From: Alphaproteobacteria bacterium
Lineage (GTDB): Bacteria; Pseudomonadota; Alphaproteobacteria; Rhodobacterales; Rhodobacteraceae
Length of the DNA stretch: 64,000 nucleotides
Reading direction: 5' to 3'
Assembly: GCA_030429495.1 (NCBI GenBank)
Contig: JAUIFH010000003.1
Span: 1 to 64,000 of the forward strand
Shown: piece by piece, positions 28,010 through 44,494 of the stretch
How positions within the stretch are numbered: position 1 is the stretch's first letter
How the letters are laid out: every line of letters begins with the position of its first letter
Made by a program: the position numbers and the translations under genes
The notes under the pieces: generated by a model
Told to the model about the DNA's origin: nothing
The model's input: the letters and a program-made list of their open reading frames with translations, nothing else
Database searches by the model: none

Positions 28010-28040
28010 CGGGACCTGCCGGAGCTGCTGTGTTTAAGGA

Positions 28041-28080
28041 GGATAACAAAGCACGCCGTGCCCGTAACTAGCCCAAAGGT
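28041..28080 (-). promoter_or_regulatory. candidate promoter of the regulator-FIST-kinase operon
   Basis: On the minus strand a weak match to the shared element (28068-28080, reading ACCTTTGGGCTAG) lies 21 nt before a -10-like TTATCC at 28041-28046. On the plus strand the same place reads CCCAAAGGTCGAAT, a better match, because the core is near-palindromic. The spacing equals that of six other promoters, suggesting autoregulation. Confidence 0.5.
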
Positions 28081-28090
28081 CGAATATGAA

Positions 28091-28117
28091 ACCGCGCGCC
28101 CCGGAAAGGGCGCGCGG
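28091..28117 (-). terminator. hairpin after the PQQ alcohol dehydrogenase gene
   Basis: A perfect 10-bp GC stem (arms 28092-28101 and 28108-28117) with a six-base loop lies 23 bases past the dehydrogenase stop on the minus strand, followed by GGTTTCAT. The U-run is weak, so termination may be partial. Confidence 0.55.
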
Positions 28118-28139
28118 CGGGCGATCGCGCGGTGGTGGT

Positions 28140-29906
28140 TCAGTTCGCCATCGCAAGCTGTTTCGGCAGCTTGAAGGTCCAGACAAGGCCGCCCTGGTTC
28201 AGGTAGTTGACCTTCTTGGCGACTTCTCCGCCCCAAAGCGGCACCGCGCCGCCCCAGCCAGAGACGATGGAGACGTATTGCTCGCCATCCTGCTCCCAGG
28301 TCACGGGCTGGCCAACGATGCCGGAGCCGGTCTGGAACGACCAGAGCTCCTCGCCCGTCTCGTCGTCAAGTGCCTTGAACTCACCCTCGGGCGTGCCGAA
28401 GAACACGAGGCCGCCGGCGGTGGTCATCACGCCACCCCAGAGCGGCGCGTCGTTCTTGTATTCCCACTTCCATTCGCCGGTCATCGGGTCGATGGCCTTG
28501 AGCGAGCCGATGTGATCCTCGTAGTTCGGCTTGATGGTGAAGCCCGAGCCGAGATAGGCCGCGCCCTTCTTGTAGCTGATCGGCTCGTTCCAGATGTCCA
28601 TGCCCCATTCGTTCGACGGCACGTAGAAAAGGCCGGTCTTCTGGCTGTAGGCCATTGGCATCCAGTTCTTGCCGCCGAGGAACGAGGGCGAGGAGAACAC
28701 AACCTCGCCCTTCGCACCATCCGCGGCCTTCGCCGGATCGCCGGGGCGGTTTTCCTCGTTGTAGATCGGGCGGCCATTTTCGTCGATTCCGGAGGCCCAG
28801 GAGATGTCCTTCACGAAGGGCCAGGCATTCAGGAACTTCCCGTCCTCGCGGTTCAGGACGTAGAAAAAGCCGTTGCGGTCGGCGGTGGCGAATTTCTTTT
28901 TGCCCTCGGCGTCGGTGAAGGCGACCACCTCGTTCACGCCGTCATAGTCCCAGCCTTCGCGCGGTGTGGTCTGGAAATGCCATTTGATCTCGCCGTTCTC
29001 AGGATTGATGCCAAGGCGCGAGGCGGCATAGAGGTTGTCGCCGGTATTACCGTCGACCGGCGTCCCTGCGTTGCGCAGGTGCGAGTTCCAAGGCGCCGGA
29101 TTGCCTGTCCCGAAGACCAGCGTGTCGGTTTCGGCGTCATAAGAGCCGCCAAGCCATGTGGCCCCGCCGCCGGTCTTCCAGAGGTCGCCCGGCCAGGTCG
29201 CGTTCAGCGTCCCGGTCATGGTGCTCTCCTCGCCCTTGTAGGTGCCCATGTGCCCCTCGATCACGGGTCGAGTCCAGACCAGATCGCCGGTTTCGGCGTC
29301 GCGCGCCTGAACCTCGCCGACGATGCCGAATTCGCCACCCGAATTGCCGGTGACGACCAGGCCGTTCACGATCAGCGGGGCTGCCGTGTACGAATAGCCT
29401 TCCTTGTATTCGGCGATCTTCTTGTTCCAGACCACATCGCCGGTCTTGGCGTTCAACGCCACAATCCGCGCATCGAGCGTGCCGAAATAGATCTTGTCCC
29501 CGTAGAGCGCGGCGCCCCGGTTGATCACGTCGCAGCACGGCAGGATGCCTTCGGGCAGACGCGCGTCGAACTGCCAGAGCTCATTGCCGGTATTCACGTC
29601 GATGGCGTAGAGCCGGGAATAGGAACCGGTAATGTACATGATCCCTTCATGGATCAACGGCTGGGTTTCTTGTCCGCGCTGCTTCTCGCCGCCAAGGCTG
29701 AACGCCCATGCCGGCACGAGGTTCTTCACGTTGTCCTTGTTGAGCGTGTCGAGCGGGCTGAAGCGTTGAAGCTGCTGGCCCATGCCGTTGGTCACGATCT
29801 GCGCGGTGTTCGTCTGGTCGTTGGTGATATCGTCCTGCGTGACCTCGGCCCGCGCGACACCGGTCGCGCAAAGGGCAGCGGTCACGGCCAAGATAAAGCG
29901 GTTCAT
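28140..29906 (-). CDS. PQQ-dependent alcohol dehydrogenase, predicted lanthanide type (XoxF/ExaF-like)
   Basis: A 588-residue periplasmic quinoprotein with a signal peptide cut after ARA (residue 20). The adjacent disulfide cysteines are Cys124-Cys125 in [10 protein letters not shown]. Beta-propeller tryptophan-docking repeats such as [13 protein letters not shown] are present. The catalytic aspartate is Asp320 in GWDYDGVNE, and Asp322 is the extra acidic residue that marks lanthanide-dependent enzymes; calcium enzymes have Ala or Ser there. It oxidises a primary alcohol (methanol or ethanol cannot be separated by eye). Start 29906 follows a GGAGGAC site. Its electron acceptor is probably the cytochrome at 35562. 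Confidence 0.92.
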
Positions 29907-29974
29907 CGGCGTCCTCCCTGGATGGTCCGTCGCTGGCCCGGCGAGTGCCGGAGGGCACTGGCGGGGCCGGTGCA

Positions 29975-30014
29975 TTATTCGGCGGGGCCGGGAGGCACGG
30001 TATTGGCCAATGGT
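29975..30014 (-). promoter_or_regulatory. promoter of the PQQ alcohol dehydrogenase
   Basis: The element ACCATTGGCCAAT (minus strand, 30002-30014) matches the locus consensus at 10 of 13 positions. It lies exactly 21 nt before the -10-like GAATAA at 29975-29980. The predicted leader to ATG 29906 is about 60 nt. A larger palindrome overlaps its upstream side. Confidence 0.6.
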
Positions 30015-30028
30015 CGTACGACCTTTGG
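30007..30028. promoter_or_regulatory. 22-bp palindrome upstream of the dehydrogenase
   Basis: A near-perfect palindrome centred at 30017/30018, with arms CCAATGGTCGT and ACGACCTTTGG that differ at one symmetric pair. It adds a second copy of the shared element one helical turn upstream of the promoter-proximal site, between the pqqE stop and the dehydrogenase promoter. Confidence 0.65.
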
Positions 30029-30040
30029 GTCAGTGCCGGA

Positions 30041-31150
30041 TCAGGCCGGGACCGGCGGCTTCGGGCGACGATAGATGAAATCCGGCGCCGCGCCGCCTTC
30101 GCCCTCGGCGGCGAGCAAGGCGTCCAGCGTGGCCCTTCCGGGCGACTTGCGGCAGACCGGGTCGGTCGCCGTGGGATCGCCGAGAACCGCCATCGCCTGA
30201 CAGCGGCAGCCGCCGAAGTCGATGTCGCGGCGGTCGCACGTCTGGCAAAGCTCCGGCATCCAGTCCGTGCCCCGAAACGCCATGAAGGCGGGGCCCTTGT
30301 ACCAGATGTCCACCAGCGCCGAGGTCGCCACGTTCTGGAACGCCAGCCCCGGGATCGTCTGCGCCGCATGGCAGGGCAGCGCCGTCCCGTCCGGCGCGAC
30401 GTTGAGGCCGGTCGATCCCCAGCCGCCCATGCAGGCCTTGGGGAAATCGGCGTAGTAATCGGGCGGCACGAAGTCGATGACCATCCGCCCCTGATGCCGG
30501 TCCCGTGCCTCTGCCACGATCCGTTTTGCCGTATCCACCTGATCGCGCGAAGGCTGGAGCGCGGCGCGGTTCCTCAGAGCCCAGCCCTGGAACTGCACGC
30601 AGGCGACCTCGATCCGCCGCGCACCGAGCGTGAGCGCGAGGTCAAGCGTCGCGGGCAGGTCGTCGAGGTTATGGCGGTGCATGACCGCGTTCAGGGTCAG
30701 CGGGATGCCGAGGTCGGCGATATGGCTCGCAAGCTCCATCTTGCGGTCGAACCCGCCCCTGTAGCCGCCGATCCGGTCGGAGATATCGGCCCTGACGCCC
30801 TGCACCGACAGCTGGATGTGGTCGAGCCCCGCCGCCACCAGCGCCTCAAGCCGGGCGCGGGTCAGGCCGATCCCGGAAGTGATGAGGTTGGTGTAAAGCC
30901 CCGCATCGCGCGCGTGGCGCACCAGGTCCTCAAGGTCGCGGCGCGAGGCGGGTTCGCCGCCCGAAAGATGCAGTTGCAGGACACCCAGCTCTGCCGCCTC
31001 GCGGAAGACCCGCGCCCAGGTCCCGGTCGAAAGCTCCGTCTCCTTCGCCGCCAGCTCCAGCGGGTTCGAGCAATAGGGGCAGGCGAGCGGGCAGCGATGC
31101 GTCAGTTCCGCCAGCATCGCAATCGGGGGATCGACGCGGGGCTCAGCCAT
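30041..31150 (-). CDS. pqqE: PqqE radical SAM enzyme
   Basis: A 369-residue radical SAM protein that forms the Glu-Tyr carbon-carbon bond in the PqqA peptide, the first step of pyrroloquinoline quinone synthesis. The radical SAM cluster motif CPLACPYCS is near residue 20. C-terminal SPASM cysteines for auxiliary clusters are in KACMGGWGS, LPCHAAQ and LCQTCDRRDIDFGGCRC. Its start overlaps pqqD by eight bases. It is the last gene of the pqqABCDE operon. Confidence 0.95.
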   Translation of the reverse strand: MAEPRVDPPIAMLAELTHRCPLACPYCSNPLELAAKETELSTGTWARVFREAAELGVLQLHLSGGEPASRRDLEDLVRHARDAGLYTNLITSGIGLTRARLEALVAAGLDHIQLSVQGVRADISDRIGGYRGGFDRKMELASHIADLGIPLTLNAVMHRHNLDDLPATLDLALTLGARRIEVACVQFQGWALRNRAALQPSRDQVDTAKRIVAEARDRHQGRMVIDFVPPDYYADFPKACMGGWGSTGLNVAPDGTALPCHAAQTIPGLAFQNVATSALVDIWYKGPAFMAFRGTDWMPELCQTCDRRDIDFGGCRCQAMAVLGDPTATDPVCRKSPGRATLDALLAAEGEGGAAPDFIYRRPKPPVPA

Positions 31151-31421
31151 GGGTCACATCCACCAGCCGCTTGTCGGCGAGGCCCTTCAGGAACTCGACG
31201 ACATCCGCGCCGACCTCATCCGCCGGCGCGCCGAAGCGCGCGGCCAGATCGCCCGCGATCTCACCCACCGACCGTTTGCCGTCGACCTCGTTCAGGATCA
31301 CCGCGCCGATCTGGTCGAGCATCAGCGCCGTTTCCGGGCCGAGAAGCACCTCGGCCCGGCGCACCTTGTCGCGGTGAAGCCGCACGCCGCGCGGCAGGAC
31401 AGGGATCGCGGCGGGGGTCAC
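31143..31421 (-). CDS. pqqD: PqqD peptide chaperone
   Basis: A 92-residue protein that binds the PqqA peptide and presents it to PqqE. I choose GTG 31421, which overlaps the pqqC stop as GTGA and gives the usual length; an ATG at 31445 would add eight residues and a larger overlap. Family features are the N-terminal PVLPRGVRLHRDK, LLDQIGAVILNEVDGKRSV-like core (LNEVDGKRSVGEIA) and the C-terminal LADKRLVD. Confidence 0.9.
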   Translation of the reverse strand: MTPAAIPVLPRGVRLHRDKVRRAEVLLGPETALMLDQIGAVILNEVDGKRSVGEIAGDLAARFGAPADEVGADVVEFLKGLADKRLVDVTHG

Positions 31422-32158
31422 GCCAGCCCCTCGCCCGGTTGCCATGCCCCCGGCGGAATGCGACCCGGCGCCACGTAGGCCGAATAGAGCGCGTCGAGCT
31501 GTGCCCAGAGGACATCGGTCTTGAAGGTCAGCGCCGCCGCCGCCGCGTCCTGATCCGCTTGCGTCACGGCATGGTCCAGCACATAGCCAAGCCCGAACTT
31601 CACATCCTTCGGCGCTTCGTCGAGCCTGTGGCGGAAATAGCTGATCGCCTCGGGGCTGGCGAAATCGTAGTGCTCCAGAAGTCCCGCGATCCGGTCGGCA
31701 TGGATCTTCGGCGCGAACAGCTCGGTCAGCGACGAGGCCACCGCCTTCAGCATCGGCTCGTCGCGGACATAGCGGACATAGGCATCGACCGCAAAGCGCG
31801 TCGCGGGCAGGACGCCTTTCGCCGAGGCGACATAGTCCGGGTCGAGCCCCACGGCCGAGGCGAGCTTCAGCCAGCGCGCGATGCCGCCCTCGCGGGTGTC
31901 GGTGCCATCGTGATCCTCGATCCGCGACCGCCAGGCACGGCGCAGCGCGGGGTCCTCGACGCGGCTCAGAAAAGCCGCGTCCTTCATCGGGATGCGGCTT
32001 TGATAATAGTAGCGGTTCACCACCCAGGCGCGGACCTGATCGATGGTGCAGCCGCCGGAATGCAGAAGCGCGTGGAACGGATGGCGGTCGTGGTAACGCT
32101 CGTCCCCGATCCGACGAAGCCGTGCCTCGAAGGCTGCGCGCGTCGTCATCTCGTTCAT
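31418..32158 (-). CDS. pqqC: PqqC pyrroloquinoline-quinone synthase
   Basis: A 246-residue all-helical oxidase catalysing the final ring closure and eight-electron oxidation to PQQ. Family residues are seen in HPFHALLHSG near residue 23, WVVNRYYYQSRIP near 45 and IEDHDGTD near 80. The length is typical. It overlaps pqqB by four bases and pqqD by four. Confidence 0.96.
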   Translation of the reverse strand: MNEMTTRAAFEARLRRIGDERYHDRHPFHALLHSGGCTIDQVRAWVVNRYYYQSRIPMKDAAFLSRVEDPALRRAWRSRIEDHDGTDTREGGIARWLKLASAVGLDPDYVASAKGVLPATRFAVDAYVRYVRDEPMLKAVASSLTELFAPKIHADRIAGLLEHYDFASPEAISYFRHRLDEAPKDVKFGLGYVLDHAVTQADQDAAAAALTFKTDVLWAQLDALYSAYVAPGRIPPGAWQPGEGLA

Positions 32159-33042
32159 AGCCGAACCTCCATTCCGTCGCGGGCGATGGTCCAGCCCGCC
32201 GCCTTCACCGTCGCCGCCTCCGGCCCCTCGGGCTGAAGCGCGGGGTTGGTGTTGTTGATGTGGACGAAGACCTTTCGGCCCCTGACACCTGTCAGCCGGG
32301 CCAGCGACCCCTCCGGCCCGCTCATCGCGATGTGCCCCATCCGCGCGCCCGTCTTGGTTCCCGTCCCCGTCGCCTGCATCTCGTCATTCTCCCAGACCGT
32401 GCCGTCGAACATCAGTAGGTCCGCATCCCCGAGCCGTTCGGCCAGCCAGTCCGGCACGGTGGCGCAACCCGGCACGTAGTAGGCCCGCTTGCCGTTCGCC
32501 GTCAGACACAGGCCAATCGTCTGTTCCCCCATCGCGTCGGTCTCGACCGTCTCGCCTTCAAGAAAGAGCGCGACCTTGCCGGGTACGGCGAAGGGCGTCA
32601 CCTGAAGCCCCGGAACCGGGCTGAACGGCTGGTCGAGCATGATCGGATGCCGGGCGACAAGTTCGGGGTCGAGAACGCCGAAGACCGGATTCGCCGACAG
32701 GACTGACAGAATCTCGGCCGAGGCGTGGACGGCAAAACCCGTCTTCTCCCTCAGCGTCAGAAGCCCGGCGATATGGTCGACATCGGCGTTCGTCAGCACC
32801 ACCGCCTTCACCGGACTGCCCCTCAGACCCGGCGGGTGCAGGGCAGGCGTACGGTCCAGCTGGTCGCGGATGTCGGGCGAGGCGTTCAGCACCACCCAGT
32901 CGCGGCCATCGACGGAAACTGCCACGGACGATTGCGTCATCCGTGGCAGTCGTCCTTCGCGCGCGTCAACGCAGTTCCGGCAGGCGCAGTTCCATTGTGG
33001 AAGCCCGCCGCCGGCACCGGCGCCAAGCACGGTGACCAGCAT
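32155..33042 (-). CDS. pqqB: PqqB metallo-beta-lactamase-fold hydroxylase
   Basis: A 295-residue protein of the MBL fold acting between PqqE and PqqC on the peptide-derived tyrosine moiety. Family marks are the start MLVTVLGAGAGGGLPQWNC, the cysteine pair CACRNC, the metal site TNADVDHIAGLL and the C-terminal HINNTNP. It follows pqqA by seven bases. Confidence 0.96.
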   Translation of the reverse strand: MLVTVLGAGAGGGLPQWNCACRNCVDAREGRLPRMTQSSVAVSVDGRDWVVLNASPDIRDQLDRTPALHPPGLRGSPVKAVVLTNADVDHIAGLLTLREKTGFAVHASAEILSVLSANPVFGVLDPELVARHPIMLDQPFSPVPGLQVTPFAVPGKVALFLEGETVETDAMGEQTIGLCLTANGKRAYYVPGCATVPDWLAERLGDADLLMFDGTVWENDEMQATGTGTKTGARMGHIAMSGPEGSLARLTGVRGRKVFVHINNTNPALQPEGPEAATVKAAGWTIARDGMEVRL

Positions 33043-33049
33043 CAGTCAC

Positions 33050-33145
33050 TCAGAACAGGTCGCGGTCGTCGTCCTCGGCCGGTCCGTACATGTTGATTTC
33101 CATGCCGCAGCGGATTTCGACGGCCTTGGGCTTTGTCCAGCTCAT
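33050..33145 (-). CDS. pqqA: PqqA precursor peptide
   Basis: A 31-residue gene starting ATG 33145 after GGGAGGAC. The peptide reads SWTKPKAVEIRCGMEINMYG in its first part and ends with an acidic DDDRDLF tail. The Glu and Tyr that PqqE cross-links are in the E-x3-Y unit EINMY (Glu16, Tyr20), so the precursor is intact. It is first in the pqqABCDE operon. Confidence 0.95.
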   Translation of the reverse strand: MSWTKPKAVEIRCGMEINMYGPAEDDDRDLF

Positions 33146-33175
33146 TTCAGGTCCTCCCGTGTTGCAGTGTTTCCA

Positions 33176-33215
33176 GACTAGCCCCTCCGGGGCGGCGAGG
33201 GAATTAGACCAAAGC
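33176..33215 (-). promoter_or_regulatory. promoter of pqqABCDE
   Basis: The minus-strand element GCTTTGGTCTAAT at 33203-33215 (9 of 13 matches) is 21 nt before the -10-like CTAGTC at 33176-33181. The nosR-like promoter at 44437 has the same CTAGTC at the same spacing. Confidence 0.62.
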
Positions 33216-33259
33216 ATCGGTTCGACGGCACGCCGCGCATGGAACGGCCGCCCCTGCGC

Positions 33260-34225
33260 TCATGGACGCGTCGCGGCACCCCAGGGGAAGCGACCGACCT
33301 TGATCGTGCGCACCGCTTTGCGCGCGGCGACGTCGATCACGGTCACGTCGCCCGAAACGCCGTTCGTCGTGAACAGCGAAGACTTGTCGGGTGAAAATGC
33401 CATGTGCCAGACGCGCCTCCCGACAAGGATGTAGTCGGTCACCTCTCTGCTTTCGGCGTCAATCACGGCGACATGGTTCGACGGGCCGAGGGCGACGAAG
33501 ACAGTCTTGCCGTCCGGCGTAAACTTGATACCCACCGGCTGGATGCGGTCGTCATGCACGCCGGTGATGGCAAACCGGATCTTTGCCGTCTCGGCCTGTG
33601 TCGCGGTGTCGAAGACGGTGACTGTTCCGCCGATCTCGGAGGATACCCACAACTCGGCCCCGTCGGGTGAAAATTGCGCATCGCGGGGACGTGCATCAAC
33701 CAGAGTATTGGCGATGATCCCATGTGTCGCGGTGTCGATCCAATGCGCCATGTTCGTCGTCTCGGACGTGGTGATGACGATCTTGCCGTCGGGGCTGACG
33801 GCCATCCCCTCTGGCTCGATCCCGACATCGATCTGGGCGACAACCCGGCGCGTCTCGGTATCCACAACGGTCGTGATCGCGTCATCCTCGTTCGCGATCC
33901 ACAGATGGCGGTCGTCGGGATGGAGGACGAACTGCTCCGGGTCCTCGCCAGAGGGCAGGTCGTGAAGGATTTCCCCGGTTTCCGTGTCGATCACCTGAAC
34001 AGCGTCGCTGTCGGAGGCGCAGACATAGGCGCGCGCGTAGTCGCGTGAAAACGTGATGCCGCGCGGGCGTTCGCCGGTGGCGATGGTGCGCACCACCTCC
34101 AGCGTGGCGACGTCGATCACGCTGATCGTGTCGTCCTTTTCGTTGGTGACCCAGATTTCGCCGGCGGTCGCCAGTTGCGCGGCAATCAGGGCGATCAGGG
34201 CTGTCACGGGAAACAGGCGTTTCAA
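33260..34225 (-). CDS. PQQ-catabolism-associated YVTN beta-propeller protein
   Basis: A 321-residue exported protein with a signal peptide (MKRLFPVTALIALIAAQLATA). It is built of seven or so YVTN-type repeats of about 42 residues, such as DTISVIDVATLEVVRTI, VQVIDTETGEI and VTVFDTATQAE. The family accompanies PQQ alcohol dehydrogenase ABC systems, where it is predicted to be periplasmic. Its start overlaps the stop of the upstream binding protein by four bases. The expected ABC ATPase and permease genes do not follow; a pqq operon on its own promoter follows instead. Confidence 0.88.
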   Translation of the reverse strand: MKRLFPVTALIALIAAQLATAGEIWVTNEKDDTISVIDVATLEVVRTIATGERPRGITFSRDYARAYVCASDSDAVQVIDTETGEILHDLPSGEDPEQFVLHPDDRHLWIANEDDAITTVVDTETRRVVAQIDVGIEPEGMAVSPDGKIVITTSETTNMAHWIDTATHGIIANTLVDARPRDAQFSPDGAELWVSSEIGGTVTVFDTATQAETAKIRFAITGVHDDRIQPVGIKFTPDGKTVFVALGPSNHVAVIDAESREVTDYILVGRRVWHMAFSPDKSSLFTTNGVSGDVTVIDVAARKAVRTIKVGRFPWGAATRP

Positions 34226-35397
34226 GGGCTTTCTCCAAAGGCTGTGCAGCCACTTTCGGGCCGGTCGAGGCCCAGCGTGTCGAGTTCGTTCTCCCGGTGC
34301 AGGAAACCGTCAAGCGGTGCTTCCGCGACCAAAGCGCGGGGTTGGACGACGGGCACGGGCTGGCGCATCTGGCCGTTCCAGCGCCGGAAGGACAGTGGCC
34401 GGCCCTTGAATCCAGCCAGTTCGAATTCATCCGACAGGATATAGGCGCGCAGCATGGCGGGATTATTGCTGCCGGTGCGCGTCACCGCCTCTCCCAGCGT
34501 TCGAAGGGCGGCCCAGGCGGCGTAGTCGCGCGGACGCATGGGGCGGCCGGCGAGGTCCTCGAACCGGCTTTGAAGCTGTGCGGCGCCCCATTGCTCGACG
34601 ACCGTCGACCAGCCGGTGGGGACAAGGCCGTCGGACCCCGCGACAGGGCGGGGCAGCCAGGTGTTGAAGGCGATGTAGCGCGCGAAATCGTCGGCTTCGT
34701 CGGCGATGAGAAGGGCGTCGTGGTCGGGCAGGTCCTGCGTGAAGAGGGCCACCTCTGCCGCCGCCGACCGGCGCAGGTCGGCGCTTTCACTCCACTCCTT
34801 CACTGCCACGATCTTCAGTCCGAATTTTTGGGCCGAGCGGCGCATGGCCTCGGCCCAGTCGCCGTCATCCGGGCGTGGCCCGACGATCAGTGCGACCCGC
34901 GTCCACCGCTTCGACAGCAGGGTCTGCATCAGGGCATCCGACCGCATCGATCGCGACAGGCCGGTATGGAGCAGGTTCGCCCGGCATCCGGTGTCGCGCA
35001 GGCTTTCGTCGGGCGCGGCGACAGAGAAGAGCAGGGCGCCCGCTGCCTCCGGCAGGTCGGCTATGGCGGTCACGTCTGCCGCATTCGCGTCAAGCACGAG
35101 GTAGGGCGAGGCGGCGAGCGCCGTGCGCGCGGCCTGGAGAGGGTCGTCACCCGGCGGCACGCTGACGATGTCGAGCGTGTAGCTGTGGCCGAGAAAGCGC
35201 CCTGTCGTAGCGTTGTCGGTCTGGCCAAGCCGCGCGCCCGCCGGGCCATCGTCCTCGGGCACCGGGTCGAGGTTGGACAGGACCGGCGGTCGGGGCTGTT
35301 CGGTCCGCAGATAAGTGGCGTGAAGCCGGGTTTCCGCCCGTGCGGCCACCGCGGGGATCGCCAGCGCCAGAATGAGAATGAGGATAAGGCGGTGCAT
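34222..35397 (-). CDS. ABC-type substrate-binding protein of a PQQ alcohol system
   Basis: A 391-residue periplasmic protein with a signal peptide (MHRLILILILALAIPAVAARA). It has the two-lobed type I binding fold of branched-chain amino acid-type receptors, with DVTAIADLP and WTRVALIVGPRPDDGDW as Rossmann-like strands. It resembles the binding proteins that travel with PQQ alcohol dehydrogenases. Start 35397 follows GGGAGGAG. It is translationally coupled to the beta-propeller gene. No membrane components are in the window. Confidence 0.82.
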   Translation of the reverse strand: MHRLILILILALAIPAVAARAETRLHATYLRTEQPRPPVLSNLDPVPEDDGPAGARLGQTDNATTGRFLGHSYTLDIVSVPPGDDPLQAARTALAASPYLVLDANAADVTAIADLPEAAGALLFSVAAPDESLRDTGCRANLLHTGLSRSMRSDALMQTLLSKRWTRVALIVGPRPDDGDWAEAMRRSAQKFGLKIVAVKEWSESADLRRSAAAEVALFTQDLPDHDALLIADEADDFARYIAFNTWLPRPVAGSDGLVPTGWSTVVEQWGAAQLQSRFEDLAGRPMRPRDYAAWAALRTLGEAVTRTGSNNPAMLRAYILSDEFELAGFKGRPLSFRRWNGQMRQPVPVVQPRALVAEAPLDGFLHRENELDTLGLDRPESGCTAFGESP

Positions 35398-35416
35398 GGA
35401 TCTCCTCCCGCCGCGA

Positions 35417-35456
35417 GGGTAGGGCCGGTCGTGTCCGGGCGGAATGCGACCATGGT
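35417..35456 (-). promoter_or_regulatory. promoter of the binding protein/beta-propeller operon
   Basis: The minus-strand element ACCATGGTCGCAT at 35444-35456 (12 of 13 matches, inside the 12-bp palindrome CGACCATGGTCG at 35447-35458) is 21 nt before the -10-like CTACCC at 35417-35422. The predicted leader is very short, about 13 nt. Confidence 0.65.
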
Positions 35457-35491
35457 CGGAGCCATCGGGCGGGCGTGCCCGCGGGTTTTGC

Positions 35492-35531
35492 ACCAAGGTC
35501 GAATAGGCGGCCTGTGGCGGTTTCGCTATCC
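35492..35531 (+). promoter_or_regulatory. promoter of the cytochrome c/XoxJ-like operon
   Basis: The perfect consensus element ACCAAGGTCGAAT at 35492-35504 is 21 nt before the -10-like CTATCC at 35526-35531. It is divergent from the preceding promoter, with the two elements 35 bp apart. Confidence 0.7.
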
Positions 35532-35561
35532 AGTCGGTGACAGGAACGCGGGAGGAAACGC

Positions 35562-36248
35562 ATGTCCATCAACGCTTCGCGGGCGGGTCTCGCCGCCCTT
35601 GCCCTATTCATGACTGCCGCTCTTGCAGACGCGCATGGCGATGTCGCCCCCCAGCCCGTGAATACCGACGCCTTGCCCGAAGTCGGCGACGAGTGGCTGA
35701 CCGAGAACCCCTATCGCGCCGATGCCGCCGGCGAGGATGTCTGGCGGGCCGCCGTCGACATCGGCGCGTCCGGGTTCAACCAGAACTGCGCGCGGTGCCA
35801 CGGGCTTGGCGCGGTATCGGGCGGCCTTGCGCCCGATCTTCGGTTCCTGGAAGCAGAGGAATACGGCGACGAATGGTTCATCGAGCGGTTCCGCCACGGT
35901 TATACCCAGGACGGAACCACCAAGATGCCGGCCTTCGGCGAGCTTCTGGGCCAGAAGGCGGCCTGGGCGATCCGCACCTATGTCGAGACGCGGCCCGACG
36001 ATGGCGCATTGGACGAGGCCGCGCCGAGGCTCAAGGAAATCCGCGACCAGCTCGCTTTGGGCGAGGGCGTCGACGTGCCGGCGGTCAGGACGGAACTGCT
36101 GGGCATTGCGGAAACCGTCGCGACAGGTTCGGGCGCGCCGGTCGCCGATAGCGTGGCGCTGCGCGCGGCCATGTTGATCGGCGAGGATGCGGCAAGCTGG
36201 AGCAGCGCGGCCGAGACCCTCACGATCGGTCTTTCGGCGGCACATTGA
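35562..36248 (+). CDS. cytochrome c (PedF-like) of PQQ alcohol oxidation
   Basis: A 228-residue periplasmic mono-haem cytochrome. A signal peptide ends near ADAHG at residue 25. The N-terminal segment DEWLTENPYR and the haem motif CARCHGLGAVSGG near residue 87 resemble the PedF/cytochrome c550-c553i group linked to quinoprotein dehydrogenases; the distal methionine is probably in TKMPAFGE. A C-terminal extension of about 75 residues has no clear domain. It is the likely electron acceptor of the dehydrogenase at 28140. The promoter carries the best copy of the locus element. Confidence 0.88.
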   Translation: MSINASRAGLAALALFMTAALADAHGDVAPQPVNTDALPEVGDEWLTENPYRADAAGEDVWRAAVDIGASGFNQNCARCHGLGAVSGGLAPDLRFLEAEEYGDEWFIERFRHGYTQDGTTKMPAFGELLGQKAAWAIRTYVETRPDDGALDEAAPRLKEIRDQLALGEGVDVPAVRTELLGIAETVATGSGAPVADSVALRAAMLIGEDAASWSSAAETLTIGLSAAH

Positions 36249-36252
36249 TCCG

Positions 36253-37143: not shown

Positions 37144-37151
37144 CAACTACG

Positions 37152-37191
37152 ACCAAGGTAAGATAGCCTCACGACGGGCTTCCCCATAGCC
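37152..37191 (+). promoter_or_regulatory. promoter of coxGSLM
   Basis: The element ACCAAGGTAAGAT at 37152-37164 (10 of 13 matches) is 21 nt before the -10-like ATAGCC at 37186-37191. The leader to ATG 37214 is about 15 nt. This is the sequence link between cox and the alcohol genes. Confidence 0.6.
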
Positions 37192-37213
37192 TTGGGTTAG
37201 ATGGAGGGACGAC

Positions 37214-37732
37214 ATGGAACTCAAGGACCAGCGCGACATCAATGCCAGCCCGGAGATTGTCTGGGCGGCGATCCTCGACCCGGAGGTTCTGAAGGCCTGC
37301 GTGCCGGGCTGCGAGAGCATGACGGGTTCGCCGGAGGAAGGTTACGAGGCGGTCGTTGTACAGAAGGTCGGGCCGGTGAAGGCGAAATTCACCGGTGTTG
37401 TCACGTTGTCCGACATCGTCGAGGGCCGCGAAGTGACGATCACGGGCGAGGGCAAGGGCGGCCCCGCCGGCTTTGCCAAGGGCGGGGCGAAGGTCACGCT
37501 CACGCCGGAAGGCGACGGAACACGCCTGTCCTACGATGTCGATGCCAAGGTGGGCGGCAAGCTTGCCCAGCTTGGGAGCCGGATCATCGACGGATTCGCG
37601 AAGAAGATGGCGGACCAGTTCTTTGCCCGGTTCCAGGAAGCGGTAGAAGGCCCGCCCGAGCCGGATGGCACGGAGCTTGACGGGTCCGACCAGCCTAAGA
37701 AAGGTTGGTTCAAAAGGGTGCTCGGCGGGTAG
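37214..37732 (+). CDS. coxG: CoxG-family SRPBCC protein
   Basis: A 172-residue protein of the CoxG/SRPBCC family. The N-terminal [19 protein letters not shown] is the family start. The helix-grip fold runs to about residue 145, followed by a charged linker and a C-terminal [11 protein letters not shown]-like tail that may contact the membrane. CoxG proteins help place or assemble molybdenum hydroxylases of the CO dehydrogenase family. It is first in the operon, 28 bases before the small subunit gene. Confidence 0.9.
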
Positions 37733-37760
37733 GCCGAAAAGAATCGATAGGGAGGAAGAC

Positions 37761-38246
<486 letters not shown>

Positions 38247-38258
38247 GGGGAGGGGACG

Positions 38259-40637
38259 ATGCCGAAGGATCAAGGAATTGGCGCGAGTTCCAAGCGCCGC
38301 GAAGACGTCCGCTTCCTGACCGGGCGCGGGGTCTACACCGATGACCTGAGCCTGCATGGACAAACCCATGCGGTCTTTGTCCGTTCGACCGTGGCTCATG
38401 GCCGGATCAAAGCCATCGACACCGCCGCCGCTGCGGCAATGCCGGGCGTCCTCGCGGTCTTCACCGGAGAAGACTTCAAGGACATGGGTGGTAACCCGGC
38501 CGGCTGGCTCATCAATTCGCGCAACGGCGAACCGATGCGCGAACCCAAGCGCCCGGTTCTGGCCCACGGCAAGGTCCGCCATGTCGGCGACGCCTATGCC
38601 GCCGTCGTGGCCGAAACCTTCCAGCAGGCAAAGGACGCCGCCCAGCAGCTTGCCGATGACAGCGATATCGAGGAATTGCCCGCGATCGTCGACATGGCCG
38701 CCGCGCTTGCCGACAGTTCCAACCGGGTTCACGACGAGATCCCCGACAACCAGTGCTTCGACTGGGGCTGGATCGAGGACAACCGCGCCGCCGTCGATGC
38801 GGCGATCAAGGCCGCGCCGCATGTCACCACGCTGGAACTCGTGAACAACCGGCTGGTGCCGAATGCGATGGAACCGCGCGCCTCTATCGGCGAATACTTC
38901 CCGGGCACCGGCGACTACAAGCTGACGACGACCAGCCAGAACCCGCACCTCCACCGCCTGCTGATAGCGGCCTTCGTGATGGGCATGCCCGAGAACAAGC
39001 TGACCGTCGTCGCGCCCGACGTGGGCGGTGGCTTCGGCTCGAAGATCTATCACTACGGCGAAGAGGCGGTTGTGCTGGCGGCGGCGAAAAAGCTCGCCCG
39101 CCCGGTGCGTTGGACGGCGGAACGCTCGGAAAGCTTTCTGTCGGATGCTCATGGCCGCGACCATGTGACAAAGATCGAACTGGCCTGCGAGAAGGACGGT
39201 ACCTTCATTGCCTTCCGGACCGAGACGATGGCCAATGTCGGCGCGTATCTGTCGAACTTCTCGACCGCGACACCGACCTTCTTGCACGGCACTCTGATGG
39301 CCGGTCCCTACAAGGTGCCGAATGTCTACGTGAACGTGAAGACGGTCTTCACCAATACCGCACCTGTCGATGCCTATCGCGGCGCTGGCCGGCCCGAGGC
39401 GACCTTCAGCCTTGAGCGGGTGATCGACAAGATGTGCCGGGAACTTGGGCTCGATCCGTTCGAGGTGCGGCGCAAGAACCTGCTCACCAAGGACATGTTT
39501 CCCTACACGACTCCGGTGGGCCTTGCCTACGACACCGGCGATTACCACGCCACGCTCGACAAGGCGATGGCGATGGCGGACGTCGCGGGCTTCGAGGCGC
39601 GCCGCGCCGAGAGCGCGAAGAAAGGCAAGCTGCGCGGCATGGGTCTGTCCACCTGGATCGAGGCCTGCGGCATTGCGCCGTCGAACCTCGTGGGCGTCCT
39701 CGGTTCCCGCGTCGGTCTTTACGACGCGGCGACCGTTCGCGTGAACGCGACCGGCAACATCTCGGTCATGACCGGTGCCCACAGCCACGGTCAGGGGCAT
39801 GAGACGGTCTTCGCGCAGATCGTCGCGGAAAAGCTCGGCGTGCCGGAGGCGTCGGTCGAGATCGTCCACGGCGACACGTCGAAGATCCCGTTCGGCATGG
39901 GCTCCTACGGTTCGCGCAGCCTCGCCGTTTGCGGTTCGGCGATGAACCGGGCGGTCGACAAGATCATCGCGAAGGGAAAGAAGATCGCCGCACACATGCT
40001 GGAAGCCGCCGAAGACGATATCACCTTCGAGAACGGCAATTTCAGCGTCGCGGGCACCGACAAGGCGAAAAGCTTCGGCGAGATCGCGTTCTCGGCCTAT
40101 GTGCCCCACAACTACCCGCTGGAGACGCTGGAACCGGGGCTGGAGGAGACGGCGTTCTATGACCCGGCCAACTTCACCTATCCGGCCGGCGCCTATATCT
40201 GCGAGGTGGAGGTCGATCCCGACACCGGAAAGGTGGACGTCGCGGCGTTCTACTGCGCGGACGACTTCGGCAATGTCATGAACCCGATGATCGTCGAGGG
40301 CCAGGTGCATGGCGGGGTCGGGCAGGGGATCGGCCAGGCGCTTTGCGAGAACACGAGCTATGACGAAAGCGGCCAGCTTCTGTCCGGCTCCTACATGGAC
40401 TACGCGATGCCGCGTGCCGACGACGTGCCGTTCTACAACGTCGACTATTCCTGCCAGACGCCCTGCACCCACAATCCGCTGGGCGTGAAGGGCTGCGGCG
40501 AGGCGGGGGCAATCGGTTCGCCCCCGGCGGTCGTCAACGCCGTGATCGACGCGCTTCACCGTGGCGGTCACACCCACGTCACCCATATCGACATGCCGGT
40601 CTCGCCGTCGCGGGTCTGGTCGGCGATCAACGGCTGA
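38259..40637 (+). CDS. coxL: form II CoxL-like molybdenum hydroxylase large subunit
   Basis: A 792-residue molybdopterin cytosine dinucleotide subunit of the xanthine oxidase family. The active-site loop reads AYRGAGR at 372-378, the form II signature; genuine form I CO dehydrogenase has AYxCSFR with a catalytic cysteine, which is absent. The catalytic glutamate is Glu748 in GCGEAGAIG. Substrate-pocket motifs GGGFGSK and GQGHETV are present. Form II enzymes have uncertain substrates. Sharing a promoter element with the PQQ dehydrogenase genes, it may oxidise the aldehyde product rather than CO (inference). Confidence 0.93.
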   Translation: MPKDQGIGASSKRREDVRFLTGRGVYTDDLSLHGQTHAVFVRSTVAHGRIKAIDTAAAAAMPGVLAVFTGEDFKDMGGNPAGWLINSRNGEPMREPKRPVLAHGKVRHVGDAYAAVVAETFQQAKDAAQQLADDSDIEELPAIVDMAAALADSSNRVHDEIPDNQCFDWGWIEDNRAAVDAAIKAAPHVTTLELVNNRLVPNAMEPRASIGEYFPGTGDYKLTTTSQNPHLHRLLIAAFVMGMPENKLTVVAPDVGGGFGSKIYHYGEEAVVLAAAKKLARPVRWTAERSESFLSDAHGRDHVTKIELACEKDGTFIAFRTETMANVGAYLSNFSTATPTFLHGTLMAGPYKVPNVYVNVKTVFTNTAPVDAYRGAGRPEATFSLERVIDKMCRELGLDPFEVRRKNLLTKDMFPYTTPVGLAYDTGDYHATLDKAMAMADVAGFEARRAESAKKGKLRGMGLSTWIEACGIAPSNLVGVLGSRVGLYDAATVRVNATGNISVMTGAHSHGQGHETVFAQIVAEKLGVPEASVEIVHGDTSKIPFGMGSYGSRSLAVCGSAMNRAVDKIIAKGKKIAAHMLEAAEDDITFENGNFSVAGTDKAKSFGEIAFSAYVPHNYPLETLEPGLEETAFYDPANFTYPAGAYICEVEVDPDTGKVDVAAFYCADDFGNVMNPMIVEGQVHGGVGQGIGQALCENTSYDESGQLLSGSYMDYAMPRADDVPFYNVDYSCQTPCTHNPLGVKGCGEAGAIGSPPAVVNAVIDALHRGGHTHVTHIDMPVSPSRVWSAING

Positions 40638-40650
40638 GGGAGGAACGGCC

Positions 40651-41433
40651 ATGCATAACTTCGAGTTCGTGAAACCGTCCTCAATCGCCGACGCGGTGGC
40701 AGCGCTTCGGCAGGAGGACGCGCAGGCCCTGTCCGGAGGGCAGACGCTGATGCCGACGATGAAGCAGCGGCTTGCCGCGCCCTCGGTGCTGGTCAGCCTG
40801 ACCGGCATCGCCGAGATGAAGGGCATCCGCGCATCGGGCGGTGTCGTCGAGATCGGCGCCGCGACCACCCACGCCGAAGTCGCGGCGGGGGCCGGCGCCT
40901 ATCCCGCCCTGACCGCGCTTGCGGGCAATATCGGTGATCCGGCCGTCCGCAACCGGGGAACGATCGGCGGCAGCCTCGCCAACAACGACCCGGCCGCCGA
41001 CTACCCGGCGGCGGCGCTCGCCTCGGGCGCGACGATCGTGACCAATGCGCGAGAGATTGCGGCCGACGACTTTTTCCAGGGCCTCTTTACGACGGCGCTG
41101 GAGGAGGGTGAGATCATCACGGCGGTCCGCTTCCCGGTCCCCGAGCGCGCGGCCTATGCCAAGTTTCAGCAGCCGGCTTCGCGCTTTGCGCTGACGGGTG
41201 CTTTCGTGGCGAAAACATCCGCCGGTGTGCGCGTCGCGATCACCGGTGCGGGCGAGGATGGCGTCTTCCGCTGGACCGATGCCGAGGCAGCGCTTTCGGG
41301 TAATTTCTCGGCAGCCGTTCTCAATGGCCTCGCGGCACCGGAGGATGGCCTGATCGGCGATCTGCACGGAACGCCAGCCTACCGTGCCAACCTCGTCAAG
41401 GTCATGACGCAGCGCGCGGTTGCCGCCGCCTGA
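40651..41433 (+). CDS. coxM: molybdenum hydroxylase FAD subunit
   Basis: A 260-residue FAD-binding subunit. The family motifs are AGGQ-like LSGGQTLMP near residue 28, TTHAEVA, and GNIGDPAVRNRGTIGGSLANNDPAAD spread over about 90-115 (FAD pyrophosphate site), then the CO_deh_flav_C domain. It accepts electrons from the small subunit. It follows coxL with a GGGAGGAA site and ends the operon before a strong terminator. No coxD/E/F maturation genes follow. Confidence 0.94.
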   Translation: MHNFEFVKPSSIADAVAALRQEDAQALSGGQTLMPTMKQRLAAPSVLVSLTGIAEMKGIRASGGVVEIGAATTHAEVAAGAGAYPALTALAGNIGDPAVRNRGTIGGSLANNDPAADYPAAALASGATIVTNAREIAADDFFQGLFTTALEEGEIITAVRFPVPERAAYAKFQQPASRFALTGAFVAKTSAGVRVAITGAGEDGVFRWTDAEAALSGNFSAAVLNGLAAPEDGLIGDLHGTPAYRANLVKVMTQRAVAAA

Positions 41434-41460
41434 ACGGCGTTGACAGCTCCCTGTCGACTG

Positions 41461-41486
41461 GCCCCCGCTTCGGCGGGGGCCTTTTT
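41461..41486 (+). terminator. Rho-independent terminator after coxM
   Basis: A perfect 8-bp stem, gcccccgc (41461-41468) and gcgggggc (41473-41480), closes a stable TTCG tetraloop and is followed by CTTTTT. It ends the cox operon just before the convergent apbE stop at 41488. Confidence 0.93.
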
Positions 41487-41487
41487 G

Positions 41488-42363
41488 TCAGAGGGTCACA
41501 AGGTCGCCGTCCGGCGACACGAGCGTAACGGACAGCAGATCGTGCCCGGTTCTGCTGAGGCGCGCAATCGCCTCGCGGTCGAGAAAGCAAAGCGCGGTCG
41601 AGAGGCCATCCGCCAGGGTTGCGGTCGTTGCCTCGACACTCACCGTCGACCAGAGCGGCGCGCGCCCCATCGGATCAAGGATATGGAAAGAAGGCCCGAG
41701 TGTCAGAGCGCCGGGACTCGACGTCGCGACGCAACCGCCGGAAAGCGCCCGCTGGCCGAGCAGCCCGTGGATTGGGTCCTCCACCCCGATCCGGAATGGT
41801 CCGCCGATTGCCGCGTATTCACCGATATTGACGAGTGCATGCGTGAATCCTACCGCCGCGAGAAGGTCGCGGACGCGGTCCGTCGCGAAGCCCTGCGCGA
41901 TGCCGTTGAAAGTCAGCGCCTGTCCCGGTGCAAGGCGGATCGTGCGCGGCGAGACCTGCACACGGTTCCAGCCAAGTGCGGCGCGGGCGGGTCCAATGGG
42001 CCGTCCTTCGGCAAGAGCGCGCCAGAGCGGCTGCACGGTCGGGTCGAACCGTCCGCCGGTCAGGCGGTGGACACGGTCCGAGGCAGCGAAAAGGGCGCGG
42101 AAATCTGGCGAGGGTGCAAGCCAGCCATCGCGATTGAGGCGGCTAAGGGCAGAGACGGGATCATGGAGGCTGAATTCCGCCTCGATCCCGTGCAGAAGGT
42201 TTTCGATGCGGGGCAGGACCGCGTTTGCCGCCGCCGCATCGCCGCGCAGGCTGACAGAGACATCCGCACCGAGCGCGCGGCCCTGCCACAGCGTCTCTGC
42301 ACCGGCGCGCCCGGGTACGGCCAGCGCTGCCGCCGCGATCTGAAGAAATCGCCGCCGTCTCAT
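41488..42363 (-). CDS. ApbE-family FAD:protein FMN transferase (NosX-like)
   Basis: A 291-residue exported flavin transferase that attaches FMN to a threonine of partner proteins in the periplasm. A TAT-like leader MRRRRFLQIAAAALA is present. ApbE motifs include the FDPTVQPL block near residue 100, NGIAQGFATD near 155 and LVNIGEYAAIGG near 178; the usual Mg/FAD-site aspartate motif near the C-terminus reads ATTATLADGLSTALCF. Its start overlaps the nosR-like stop by four bases, so that protein is the predicted FMN acceptor. Confidence 0.88.
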   Translation of the reverse strand: MRRRRFLQIAAAALAVPGRAGAETLWQGRALGADVSVSLRGDAAAANAVLPRIENLLHGIEAEFSLHDPVSALSRLNRDGWLAPSPDFRALFAASDRVHRLTGGRFDPTVQPLWRALAEGRPIGPARAALGWNRVQVSPRTIRLAPGQALTFNGIAQGFATDRVRDLLAAVGFTHALVNIGEYAAIGGPFRIGVEDPIHGLLGQRALSGGCVATSSPGALTLGPSFHILDPMGRAPLWSTVSVEATTATLADGLSTALCFLDREAIARLSRTGHDLLSVTLVSPDGDLVTL

Positions 42364-44429
42364 TCCGCCGCCTCCCGGTTCGTGCGCCGCGCCGCGAGGA
42401 TCAGGGGCACGCATCGTTTCGGGTCGTCATGGATTGCTACGCAATCAAGGCACTGGAAACATTCGGAATAGTCGATCTTGCCAGACTTTTCGATCGACCC
42501 GTAATTGCACCGGACGCGGCAGAGCTGGCAGGGGCTGCCGCATTCGGCCCGCCGGGCGATCCAGTTGCGGCCGCGCAGGAGCCCGCCGATCGCCATCACC
42601 GCGCCGAGCGGGCAGATATAGCGGCAGAAGCCCTTGAACGTGACCATCCCGAGCGCGAGCCAGAAGCCCGCATAGGCGACATAGTACCATTCGCGGACGA
42701 AATAGACGGTGATTGCGGTCTTGAATGGCTCAATCTCCGCCACCTGATCGACCCGGTCGGGGACAAGCAGAACCGTCGCGACCATCCCGCCGAGAACGAC
42801 GTATTTGATCCGCTTCAGACGCGCATCCAAGATCACGCCCGGTTCAAGCCGGGGCAGGCGGAGCAGCCGGCCTGCATGGTGGGCGAATTCCTGAAGCGCG
42901 CCGAACGGGCAGAGCCAGCCGCAAAAGAAGCCGCGCCCCCAGAGGATGAGGCCGGCCCCCGCCGCCGCCCAGACGATGAGGGAAAACGGGTCGTAAAGCA
43001 GATAGCCGAAACTGGTCCCCTCCAGTGCCGTCCGTATTGTCGCGAAGACGGTAACGACCGAAAGCTGCCCCTGTCCCCACCAGCCGATGAACCCGGTCAT
43101 GAAACCGAGGATGCCAAGCCGGGTGGCCGTGAGGGACCGGTGTGCCGCGAACCGGCGGGCTCCGGGGCCGAGCAGAAGGAACAGCGCCGAAAGAAACACG
43201 GCTAGCGCGGCGAGATCGCCCTGACGTGCGCGGATCGCCTCTTGCCAAGGCGGGCGGGGTGCTGTTGCCTCCGGCCGGACGAAGAACCGTTCGTCGGTCC
43301 GGTGCGGCAGGTCGAAATGGACGCTGCCCGTTTCCGGGCGGAACATCCCGTGTTCGCGGGTTGCCTGAACCTTCAGCACCCAGTCCCGCACCGGATCGAA
43401 GCCCAGCCGCCGGTCCGTCCTGAGGATCATCGCGGTGCCGGCGGGCACGCCGGGCCGCGTTTCGAACAGAAGGTCGGCGTCGCGCAGCGCGACGGGCAAC
43501 CCGTCCTGTTCGGCCGCCAGCCGGTCGGGCGCGGTGTTTCGCGTAAAGGCATCGGAGACCAGGCCGTGCCGGCCCGCATCGATGACCAGCAGCGGTTCGT
43601 CCGTGGGCGAGACCGCGCGGAACCGGTCGAGATCGCGCAGCGACTCGGCGGTCAGGACCGCGCGGGCAATTGCCGGCGGGCCGATATCGACCAGCCAGAG
43701 ATCAAGGTAGCGGCCATCGGGGTTTGCGGTTGCCTCCGGATCGTCAGCGGCCCAGATGGTACCGGCAAAGGCCGCGTCGACATCGCGGTTCAGGACCGTG
43801 AGATGCCCTGCCAGACCGCTCGCCACGAGGTCTGCCCATGTCAGCGCCTCGTCGTGATCGGGGTCGGGCGCGGCGGGCGGCGCTGCGGCGATCCCCCGCA
43901 TCTTCTCGCGCGCGACCTGGAGCGTGGCGGCAAGGATCGATTCATGCGCAATCCGAACGCTCGCCGTCGCCTTGGTTACACCGTCGAGATAGACAAGATC
44001 CGATCCGGCGCCGCCCGCACCATAGGGCGTGCCGACGACCATCGGCGTGTTGATCGAATGGCCGCGATACTGTTCGAAGAACTTGCGGAATGGCGCTTCG
44101 CCAAGCCCCGAGACGAAGATCGGCTCGTTATGCGAGAGCAGCCGCACATCGATGAACTGGCCATTCCGGTCGAGCAGGACCAGCATGTTGATCGGCGCGC
44201 CCGAGAAGCCGGGCAGGGGGGCCATCAAACCGGTCTCGAAAACATACCCCGCCTCGGCCCCGCCGGAGTTCAACAGGCTCCACACGCCTTTGTCATTGAC
44301 CGGCTCGCCCAGTGCATAGGGCGGCAGCACGAAGGGTTCGACATCGGCGCGCGCCAGCGGTTCGGCCACGCCCGGAACAGGCAGGCCGAGCAGGAACACG
44401 ATGGTCAGGCACGATAGCAGAACGCGCAT
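42360..44429 (-). CDS. NosR/NirI-family flavo-ferredoxin membrane protein
   Basis: A 689-residue membrane protein: signal peptide, periplasmic FMN-binding domain (about 70-190, possible flavinylation threonine in VTKATAS), a periplasmic beta-rich region to about 380, membrane helices, and the polyferredoxin motifs CGWLCPFG, CRYICPLG, CGSPCQLCRVRC and CFQCLDC. NosR proteins feed electrons to N2O reductase, but no nosZDFYL gene is here. With apbE alone it is an orphan. Its promoter carries a perfect locus element, so it probably moves electrons for alcohol oxidation (inference). The transcript looks nearly leaderless. Confidence 0.9.
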   Translation of the reverse strand: MRVLLSCLTIVFLLGLPVPGVAEPLARADVEPFVLPPYALGEPVNDKGVWSLLNSGGAEAGYVFETGLMAPLPGFSGAPINMLVLLDRNGQFIDVRLLSHNEPIFVSGLGEAPFRKFFEQYRGHSINTPMVVGTPYGAGGAGSDLVYLDGVTKATASVRIAHESILAATLQVAREKMRGIAAAPPAAPDPDHDEALTWADLVASGLAGHLTVLNRDVDAAFAGTIWAADDPEATANPDGRYLDLWLVDIGPPAIARAVLTAESLRDLDRFRAVSPTDEPLLVIDAGRHGLVSDAFTRNTAPDRLAAEQDGLPVALRDADLLFETRPGVPAGTAMILRTDRRLGFDPVRDWVLKVQATREHGMFRPETGSVHFDLPHRTDERFFVRPEATAPRPPWQEAIRARQGDLAALAVFLSALFLLLGPGARRFAAHRSLTATRLGILGFMTGFIGWWGQGQLSVVTVFATIRTALEGTSFGYLLYDPFSLIVWAAAGAGLILWGRGFFCGWLCPFGALQEFAHHAGRLLRLPRLEPGVILDARLKRIKYVVLGGMVATVLLVPDRVDQVAEIEPFKTAITVYFVREWYYVAYAGFWLALGMVTFKGFCRYICPLGAVMAIGGLLRGRNWIARRAECGSPCQLCRVRCNYGSIEKSGKIDYSECFQCLDCVAIHDDPKRCVPLILAARRTNREAAE

Positions 44430-44436
44430 AATCCCA

Positions 44437-44476
44437 GACTAGGGCGCACGCACCCTCCCGGACATTCGACCATGGT
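44437..44476 (-). promoter_or_regulatory. promoter of the nosR-like/apbE operon
   Basis: The minus-strand element ACCATGGTCGAAT at 44464-44476 is a perfect match and part of the 16-bp palindrome TTCGACCATGGTCGAA (44465-44480). It lies 21 nt before the -10-like CTAGTC at 44437-44442. Transcription would begin at about 44430, at the ATG itself, and no ribosome-binding site is visible. Confidence 0.7.
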
Positions 44477-44494
44477 CGAAGCATGCGCCCGGTA

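Follow-up and report, generated by a model that had tools for sequence, protein, structure and literature searches.

The window described here is a stretch of 64,000 nucleotides from the genome of a member of the Rhodobacteraceae (assembly GCA_030429495.1, contig JAUIFH010000003.1, positions 1 to 64,000 of the forward strand). It contains seven gene groups for alcohol oxidation dependent on pyrroloquinoline quinone (PQQ), each preceded by a copy of a palindromic element to which, judged from the sequence, a common activator of all seven very probably binds. The genes are the following, with the family or domain assignment in brackets:

23923–26124, minus strand: PAS hybrid histidine kinase, 733 amino acids (domain matches)
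26121–27281, minus strand: FIST-domain protein (domain match)
27305–28009, minus strand: NarL/LuxR-type response regulator, the proposed binder of the element (Response_reg and GerE domains)
28140–29906, minus strand: PQQ-dependent alcohol dehydrogenase (TIGR03075)
30041–31150, minus strand: pqqE (TIGR02109)
31418–32158, minus strand: pqqC (TENA/PqqC family match)
32155–33042, minus strand: pqqB (TIGR02108)
33050–33145, minus strand: pqqA, 31 amino acids (TIGR02107, 39.1 bits, cut-off 20)
33260–34225, minus strand: PQQ-associated beta-propeller protein (TIGR03866)
34222–35397, minus strand: substrate-binding protein associated with PQQ alcohol dehydrogenases (TIGR03863)
35562–36248, plus strand: cytochrome c550 PedF (TIGR04494)
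37214–37732, plus strand: coxG (PF06240)
37761–38246, plus strand: coxS, [2Fe-2S] subunit (PF01799)
38259–40637, plus strand: form II CoxL (AYRGAGR loop)
40651–41433, plus strand: coxM, FAD subunit (PF00941)
41488–42414, minus strand: ApbE-type FMN transferase (PF02424)
42360–44429, minus strand: NosR-like membrane ferredoxin protein (family matches)

The form I carbon monoxide (CO) dehydrogenase loop, (A/S)YRCS(F/L)R, was not found in CoxL, where AYRGAGR is present. The NosR-like protein scores 429.7 bits against the curated NosR family NF046105, short of the cut-off of 1000, and is called NosR-like only.

The element is a 7-2-7 inverted repeat, formed by two heptamers around two base pairs, with the idealised sequence TWCGACC-WW-GGTCGWA. 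The copy before the NosR-like gene is a perfect palindrome with seven symmetric pairs out of seven; the copies of the TIGR03863 unit, pedF and coxG have six, five and four, and symmetry is poor in those of the dehydrogenase (three), the regulator and pqqA (two each). The original prediction had described it as a 13-mer in front of the seven transcription units, matching at 6, 10, 9, 12, 13, 10 and 13 of 13 positions; all seven 13-mers are at the places given for them and the counts, checked by eye, are correct. The putative operators and predicted −10 hexamers are:

28069–28084, minus strand: operator of the regulator-FIST-kinase operon, TTCGACC-TT-TGGGCTA
28040–28045, minus strand: its predicted −10, TATCCT
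30003–30018, minus strand: operator of the PQQ alcohol dehydrogenase, TACGACC-AT-TGGCCAA
29974–29979, minus strand: its predicted −10, AATAAT
33204–33219, minus strand: operator of pqqA, CGATGCT-TT-GGTCTAA, with a degenerate left half
33175–33180, minus strand: its predicted −10, TAGTCT
35445–35460, minus strand: operator of the TIGR03863 binding protein/beta-propeller unit, TCCGACC-AT-GGTCGCA
35416–35421, minus strand: its predicted −10, TACCCT
35488–35503, plus strand: operator of the cytochrome c550 gene pedF, TTGCACC-AA-GGTCGAA, in the intergenic region common to the TIGR03863 unit
35527–35532, plus strand: its predicted −10, TATCCA, which like most listed pedF sites has no final T
37148–37163, plus strand: operator of coxG-coxSLM, TACGACC-AA-GGTAAGA
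37187–37192, plus strand: its predicted −10, TAGCCT
44465–44480, minus strand: operator of the NosR-like gene, TTCGACC-AT-GGTCGAA
44436–44441, minus strand: its predicted −10, TAGTCT, 6 nucleotides before the ATG

Hexamers had been proposed exactly 21 nucleotides downstream of each 13-mer. They are present, but the register counts in the window and in relatives indicate that they were taken one base early, the predicted −10 being the next frame, 22 nucleotides after the 13-mer, as listed above. Likewise, the distance called invariant is indeed constant across the seven sites of the window, but varies by one or two nucleotides in relatives and is better described as narrow. There, the −10 lies mostly 23 to 24 nucleotides from the palindrome end: among the 64 regulator promoters with a site, TAnnnT starts at 22 (4 promoters), 23 (31), 24 (20) or 25 (1) from the last palindrome base, and in the dehydrogenase promoters RATAMT is found mostly at 23. 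When hexamers starting at 22 to 26 are tallied once per promoter for sites of at least 12 bits, an in-register −10 accompanies 56/64 regulator, 23/28 alcohol dehydrogenase, 15/26 TIGR03863, 4/4 nosR-like and 4/4 pqqB sites, and for the best coxG palindrome of any score TAnnnT is present at 22 to 25 in 47 of 50.

In class II promoters the activator binds at or over the edge of the −35 region, with its site centred near −41.5. With the −10 placed at −12 to −7, the palindrome centre, 31.5 nucleotides before the −10, would fall near −43.5 instead of the −42.5 originally given, and the location relative to the −10 may still be that of a class II activator. The NosR-like transcript (42360–44441) would be leaderless, since its ATG follows the −10 by only 6 nucleotides; the start codon is at the same distance in three relatives (L048, L066 and L068), at 27 nucleotides in a fourth (L081), and at 6 to 7 nucleotides in the annotated Gemmobacter and Sulfitobacter nosR-like records. 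At the dehydrogenase promoter (30016–30049), a further half-palindrome, CCAAAGGTCGTACG, overlaps the operator from the upstream side; by eye, GGTCG directly precedes the left heptamer in 8 of the 28 dehydrogenase promoters of relatives.

Taken alone, the 13-mer is only mildly enriched; what establishes the element is where its copies stand and how they are conserved. With up to three mismatches it occurs 35 times in the window against 20.9 expected (about 1.7-fold), a count reached by one of 100 shuffles; with at most one mismatch it is found at 16 places genome-wide, five of them in the window, against two for the reversed pattern. Of the 11 places outside the window, ten are in coding-like open reading frames (ORFs). 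The eleventh belongs to two adjacent operator-like palindromes of 8.5 and 12.4 bits on contig 12 (L009, around 1476–1520), outside any coding-like ORF and past the end of a gene that by eye resembles formate dehydrogenase. One of the ten in coding-like ORFs, on contig 24 (L015, around 1495–1514), is an operator-like palindrome of 15.1 bits; another, of 11.2 bits, is about 400 nucleotides away.

An expectation-maximisation motif search on 166 upstream regions of orthologous genes, seeded with the predicted palindrome, converged on TACGACC-WT-nGTCCAA. The model had an AT-rich extension and also, at a fixed distance, the hexamer TAnnnT, which had not been seeded. A profile named R1 was then built from 53 sites of relatives, with both the window and its closest locus (L017) left out; the sites were those of at least 12 bits with a −10 in the main register, plus the pedF copies. 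In the window, the R1 matches at 28040, 29974, 44436, 35416 and 33175 rank first to fifth and that at 35492 seventh, while the coxG site, at 37147, ranks twelfth with an E value of 1.1. The regulator's own site, held to be the weakest of the seven, is in fact the top-scoring one under R1, in the window as in the genome. In the 3.83-Mb genome, where 150 of 635 candidates were scored, seven of the ten matches with E up to 10 are in the locus and correspond to six of the seven sites; the other three are partial matches inside coding-like ORFs. A matrix trained on coxG promoters has the coxG site as its top window match, followed directly by five of the other six operators.

Comparison with orthologous loci, which had been suggested as a check, places the element before the same genes. 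From 462 loci that have a relative of the regulator the best 80 were taken, and each gene class was scored, at the 99% shuffle threshold, with a model trained on all classes but that one. Passes were obtained for 28/28 alcohol dehydrogenase, 26/26 TIGR03863, 23/25 pedF, 45/50 coxG, 5/7 nosR-like and 4/5 pqqB (that is, pqqA/B) upstream regions, the TIGR03863 and pedF classes sharing one intergenic region and not being independent. The controls were 195 upstream regions of coxL, propeller, FIST, pqqC, pqqE and glutathione-dependent formaldehyde dehydrogenase (GSH-FDH) genes and of a class labelled SBP, one GSH-FDH region being misplaced; none passed in six runs, and in the seventh, that of coxG, one did (pqqC, 1/5). 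Kinase upstream regions did not serve as controls, since the element is mimicked by FIST codons directly in front of the kinase gene. In the window such codons, for the peptide STYGEQ, are found at 26183–26211 (TTCGACCTAYGGCGAA), which calls for caution in motif scans.

Four named plasmids, those of Shinella zoogloeoides, Ruegeria sp. AD91A, Gemmobacter fulvus and Sulfitobacter sp. THAF37, give the same picture of one element for one alcohol-oxidation regulon. Of their 139 annotated genes, 132 were scanned, seven being cut by an edge. Every match of at least 12 bits precedes a gene of the PQQ cluster: the dehydrogenase and the nosR-like gene in all four plasmids, pedF or the TIGR03863 gene also in all four, and pqqA, coxG, regulator, cytochrome or ABC genes in some. 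The scan found no regulator match on the Shinella plasmid and one of only 9.1 bits in Sulfitobacter, whose coxG has no site of its own but stands behind a cytochrome gene that has one of 18.1 bits; in Gemmobacter no in-register −10 was found for the dehydrogenase and TIGR03863 sites. Two unrelated genes have matches of 8.5 to 8.6 bits. Among the sites of at least 13 bits with a −10 in the 80 loci, 39 precede genes outside the query set, 31 of which are coxG by N-terminal sequence; the others include, as named by eye, PqqA, an aldehyde dehydrogenase-like protein and transporter-like genes.

The regulator at 27305–28009, which the original prediction had put forward as the obvious binder, is favoured by two observations. 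The element precedes the regulator gene itself in 64 of the 80 loci, a count obtained with the regulator class in the training set. Furthermore, coxG sites accompany the regulator. The gene is present in 53 of 61 genomes of the family, 16 with a regulator orthologue of at least 58% identity and 37 without. The 30 best coxG loci were read, 15 from each group: an operator that reaches 8 bits (a cut-off set after a first look) and has a −10 is found in 11/15 genomes with the regulator and 0/15 without it (Fisher p 5e-5). A threshold-free rank test of the site scores gives p 1.3e-5. Some coxG upstream regions are shared with the relatives sample (for example G009 with L025, G027 with L036), the 50 bases before coxG being identical in G009 and Defluviimonas denitrificans (L025), coxG lying outside that training set. 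As G009 is of the same genus as the genome of the window, that genus is probably Defluviimonas. With strict filters and E up to 0.02, R1 matches only seven of the 61 genomes, some matches being the regulator's own promoter or coming from species used in training; six of the seven have the regulator and the other a 50% relative, compared with 23 among all 61 genomes, an association that is partly circular since in G029 and G041 the match lies right before the regulator gene.

Several results count against the element being the operator of this regulator. Held out, only 24 of the 80 regulator upstream regions pass; these promoters have the variant TAAGACCTTWGG form, which passes in 64 of 80 only with the class in training. 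Among kinase upstream regions, 21/79 reach 12 bits; in 20 the match consists of the codons for STYGEQ, a conserved peptide of the FIST protein, and one is unexplained. The best pedF sites have TAnnnT in register in 0 of 23, which arises because the best palindrome there often faces the divergent gene and because the copies nearest to pedF are followed by hexamers resembling TATSAM, which keep that register in most of the nine listed. On the Shinella plasmid, one strong site alone has an in-register −10. Four of the 15 coxG promoters in regulator-bearing genomes have no site, and the co-occurrence p values ignore phylogeny, with some of the genomes belonging to the same species as training loci. 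Finally, the genome encodes a second regulator-FIST-kinase set on contig 24 (L242, 10704–14840), with a regulator 43% identical to that of the window.

This last set raises the question of whether a real operator is bound by another regulator, such as the paralogue encoded near a GSH-FDH gene, or by both regulators, since NarL-type paralogues can share operators. We consider this unlikely. Two of the 15 coxG genomes counted as lacking the regulator (G001 and G042) have only a 43–44% relative, and their coxG loci are without a site of 8 bits with a −10; moreover, none of 31 GSH-FDH upstream regions reaches 12 bits and, as described above, it is the window-type regulator whose gene the element precedes. 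Chance or base composition, to which the modest enrichment of the bare 13-mer could point, is contradicted by the held-out tests, the negative gene classes and the genome-wide ranking, leaving it next to no probability. A role as repression operator has a precedent in Rhodobacter sphaeroides, which has two such systems, AfdRS activating and RfdRS thought to repress adhI (PMC4776306). The sites described here are upstream of the −35 region and not over the −10 or the start, and the Pseudomonas counterpart AgmR is described as an activator (PMC12997753), which makes repression distinctly improbable.

In our view the element is probably the operator to which the response regulator at 27305–28009 binds, as a predicted class II activator of a seven-unit regulon. 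In the mechanism that we infer, an alcohol or its aldehyde would give rise to a signal that reaches the regulator through the FIST protein and the PAS hybrid kinase. Once phosphorylated, the regulator would bind as a dimer to the 7-2-7 repeat, directly next to the −35 region with its centre near −43.5, and would recruit RNA polymerase to promoters with a poor −35 and a TAnnnT hexamer. The predicted regulon comprises the sensor operon itself, which would be autoregulated, the PQQ alcohol dehydrogenase, PQQ synthesis, the TIGR03863 and TIGR03866 proteins and cytochrome c550, and further the form II CoxG-SLM molybdenum hydroxylase and the NosR-like/ApbE pair. GSH-FDH was considered as a further target and rejected, 0/31 upstream regions having at least 12 bits (best 9.0; 7.5 in L116). 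The GSH-FDH promoter of the same genome has a half-palindrome with TATACT 24 nucleotides on, but scores 0.1 bits. The contig-24 regulator-FIST-kinase operon, some 3 to 7 kb from GSH-FDH, may be the true FlhR/AfdR counterpart.

Outside the family, 13/25 pedF upstream regions contain TACTACC or TACGACC heptamers in the 7-2-7 arrangement, with matches at 11 or more of 14 positions, against 0.1% of shuffles. This is only a lead, since the form was picked after a first look and since ten of the 13 belong to just two families and are without an in-register −10. By eye, TAnnnT is again 22 to 23 nucleotides on in four cases, weaker or single ones. A wider reading, offered tentatively and with doubt, is that regulators of the AgmR/FlhR family may have a conserved operator, TACKACC-WW-GGKMGTA, which stands in a single, fixed promoter geometry and marks out a regulon for alcohol oxidation in several classes of Proteobacteria. 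In the Rhodobacteraceae this operator might have recruited form II CoxSLM as a cytoplasmic aldehyde oxidase finishing the work of the periplasmic PQQ dehydrogenase, with NosR-like/ApbE as electron conduit. If true, form II 'CO dehydrogenase' would gain a substrate class. The predicted regulon by itself would tie form II CoxGSLM and NosR-like/ApbE, both orphan sets of enzymes, to alcohol or aldehyde oxidation and make the form II substrate question directly testable, and its promoter rule can be searched for in other genomes.

With known systems there are clear similarities. NarL/NarP operators also consist of two heptamers with a 2-bp spacer, recognised through a GerE output domain, but the heptamer of the window is TWCGACC and not the NarL consensus TACYYMT. 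Like AgmR/PedR1, the regulator of the window is of LuxR/NarL type and is encoded with a FIST protein and a hybrid kinase, linked to a PQQ alcohol dehydrogenase, pqq genes and pedF; GfdT/NosP, which senses nitric oxide, is a FIST-type protein. In Pseudomonas, the LuxR-type AgmR/PedR1/ErbR lies beside GfdT/NosP and the hybrid kinase PedS1 and activates PQQ alcohol dehydrogenases, other ped genes including pedF, and pqq genes (PMC12997753). In the description consulted, coxG-SLM and NosR-like/ApbE were not found, and the operator of the window has TACGACC as opposed to the TACTACC form before pedF in other families. No operator sequence for AgmR/PedR1 or FlhR/AfdR-type regulators was found in the searchable literature, where an earlier description is possible, and the main texts of two Pseudomonas aeruginosa binding atlases do not mention ErbR, AgmR or PA1978 (PMC8041468, PMC13086498); the element thus provides a concrete predicted operator for a much-studied regulator family.

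FlhRS of Paracoccus denitrificans and AfdRS and RfdRS of R. sphaeroides share the arrangement of regulator, intervening ORF and kinase, and are described as controlling formaldehyde and methanol oxidation (PMC4776306, PMC8879981); they differ in that no site of at least 12 bits was found for GSH-FDH, the target characterised in those systems, in any of the 31 upstream regions of the window's family. The CoxG/S/L/M set with its AYRGAGR loop resembles form II CO dehydrogenase-like enzymes, the activity of which is said to remain 'unresolved' (PMC13240472) and for which CO is thought not to be the substrate (PMC6794299), but here it is placed in a predicted PQQ-alcohol regulon. While the regulator type is already known from AgmR/PedR1 and FlhR/AfdR, the most interesting feature is the predicted presence of a form II 'CO dehydrogenase' and of NosR-like/ApbE in such a regulon.

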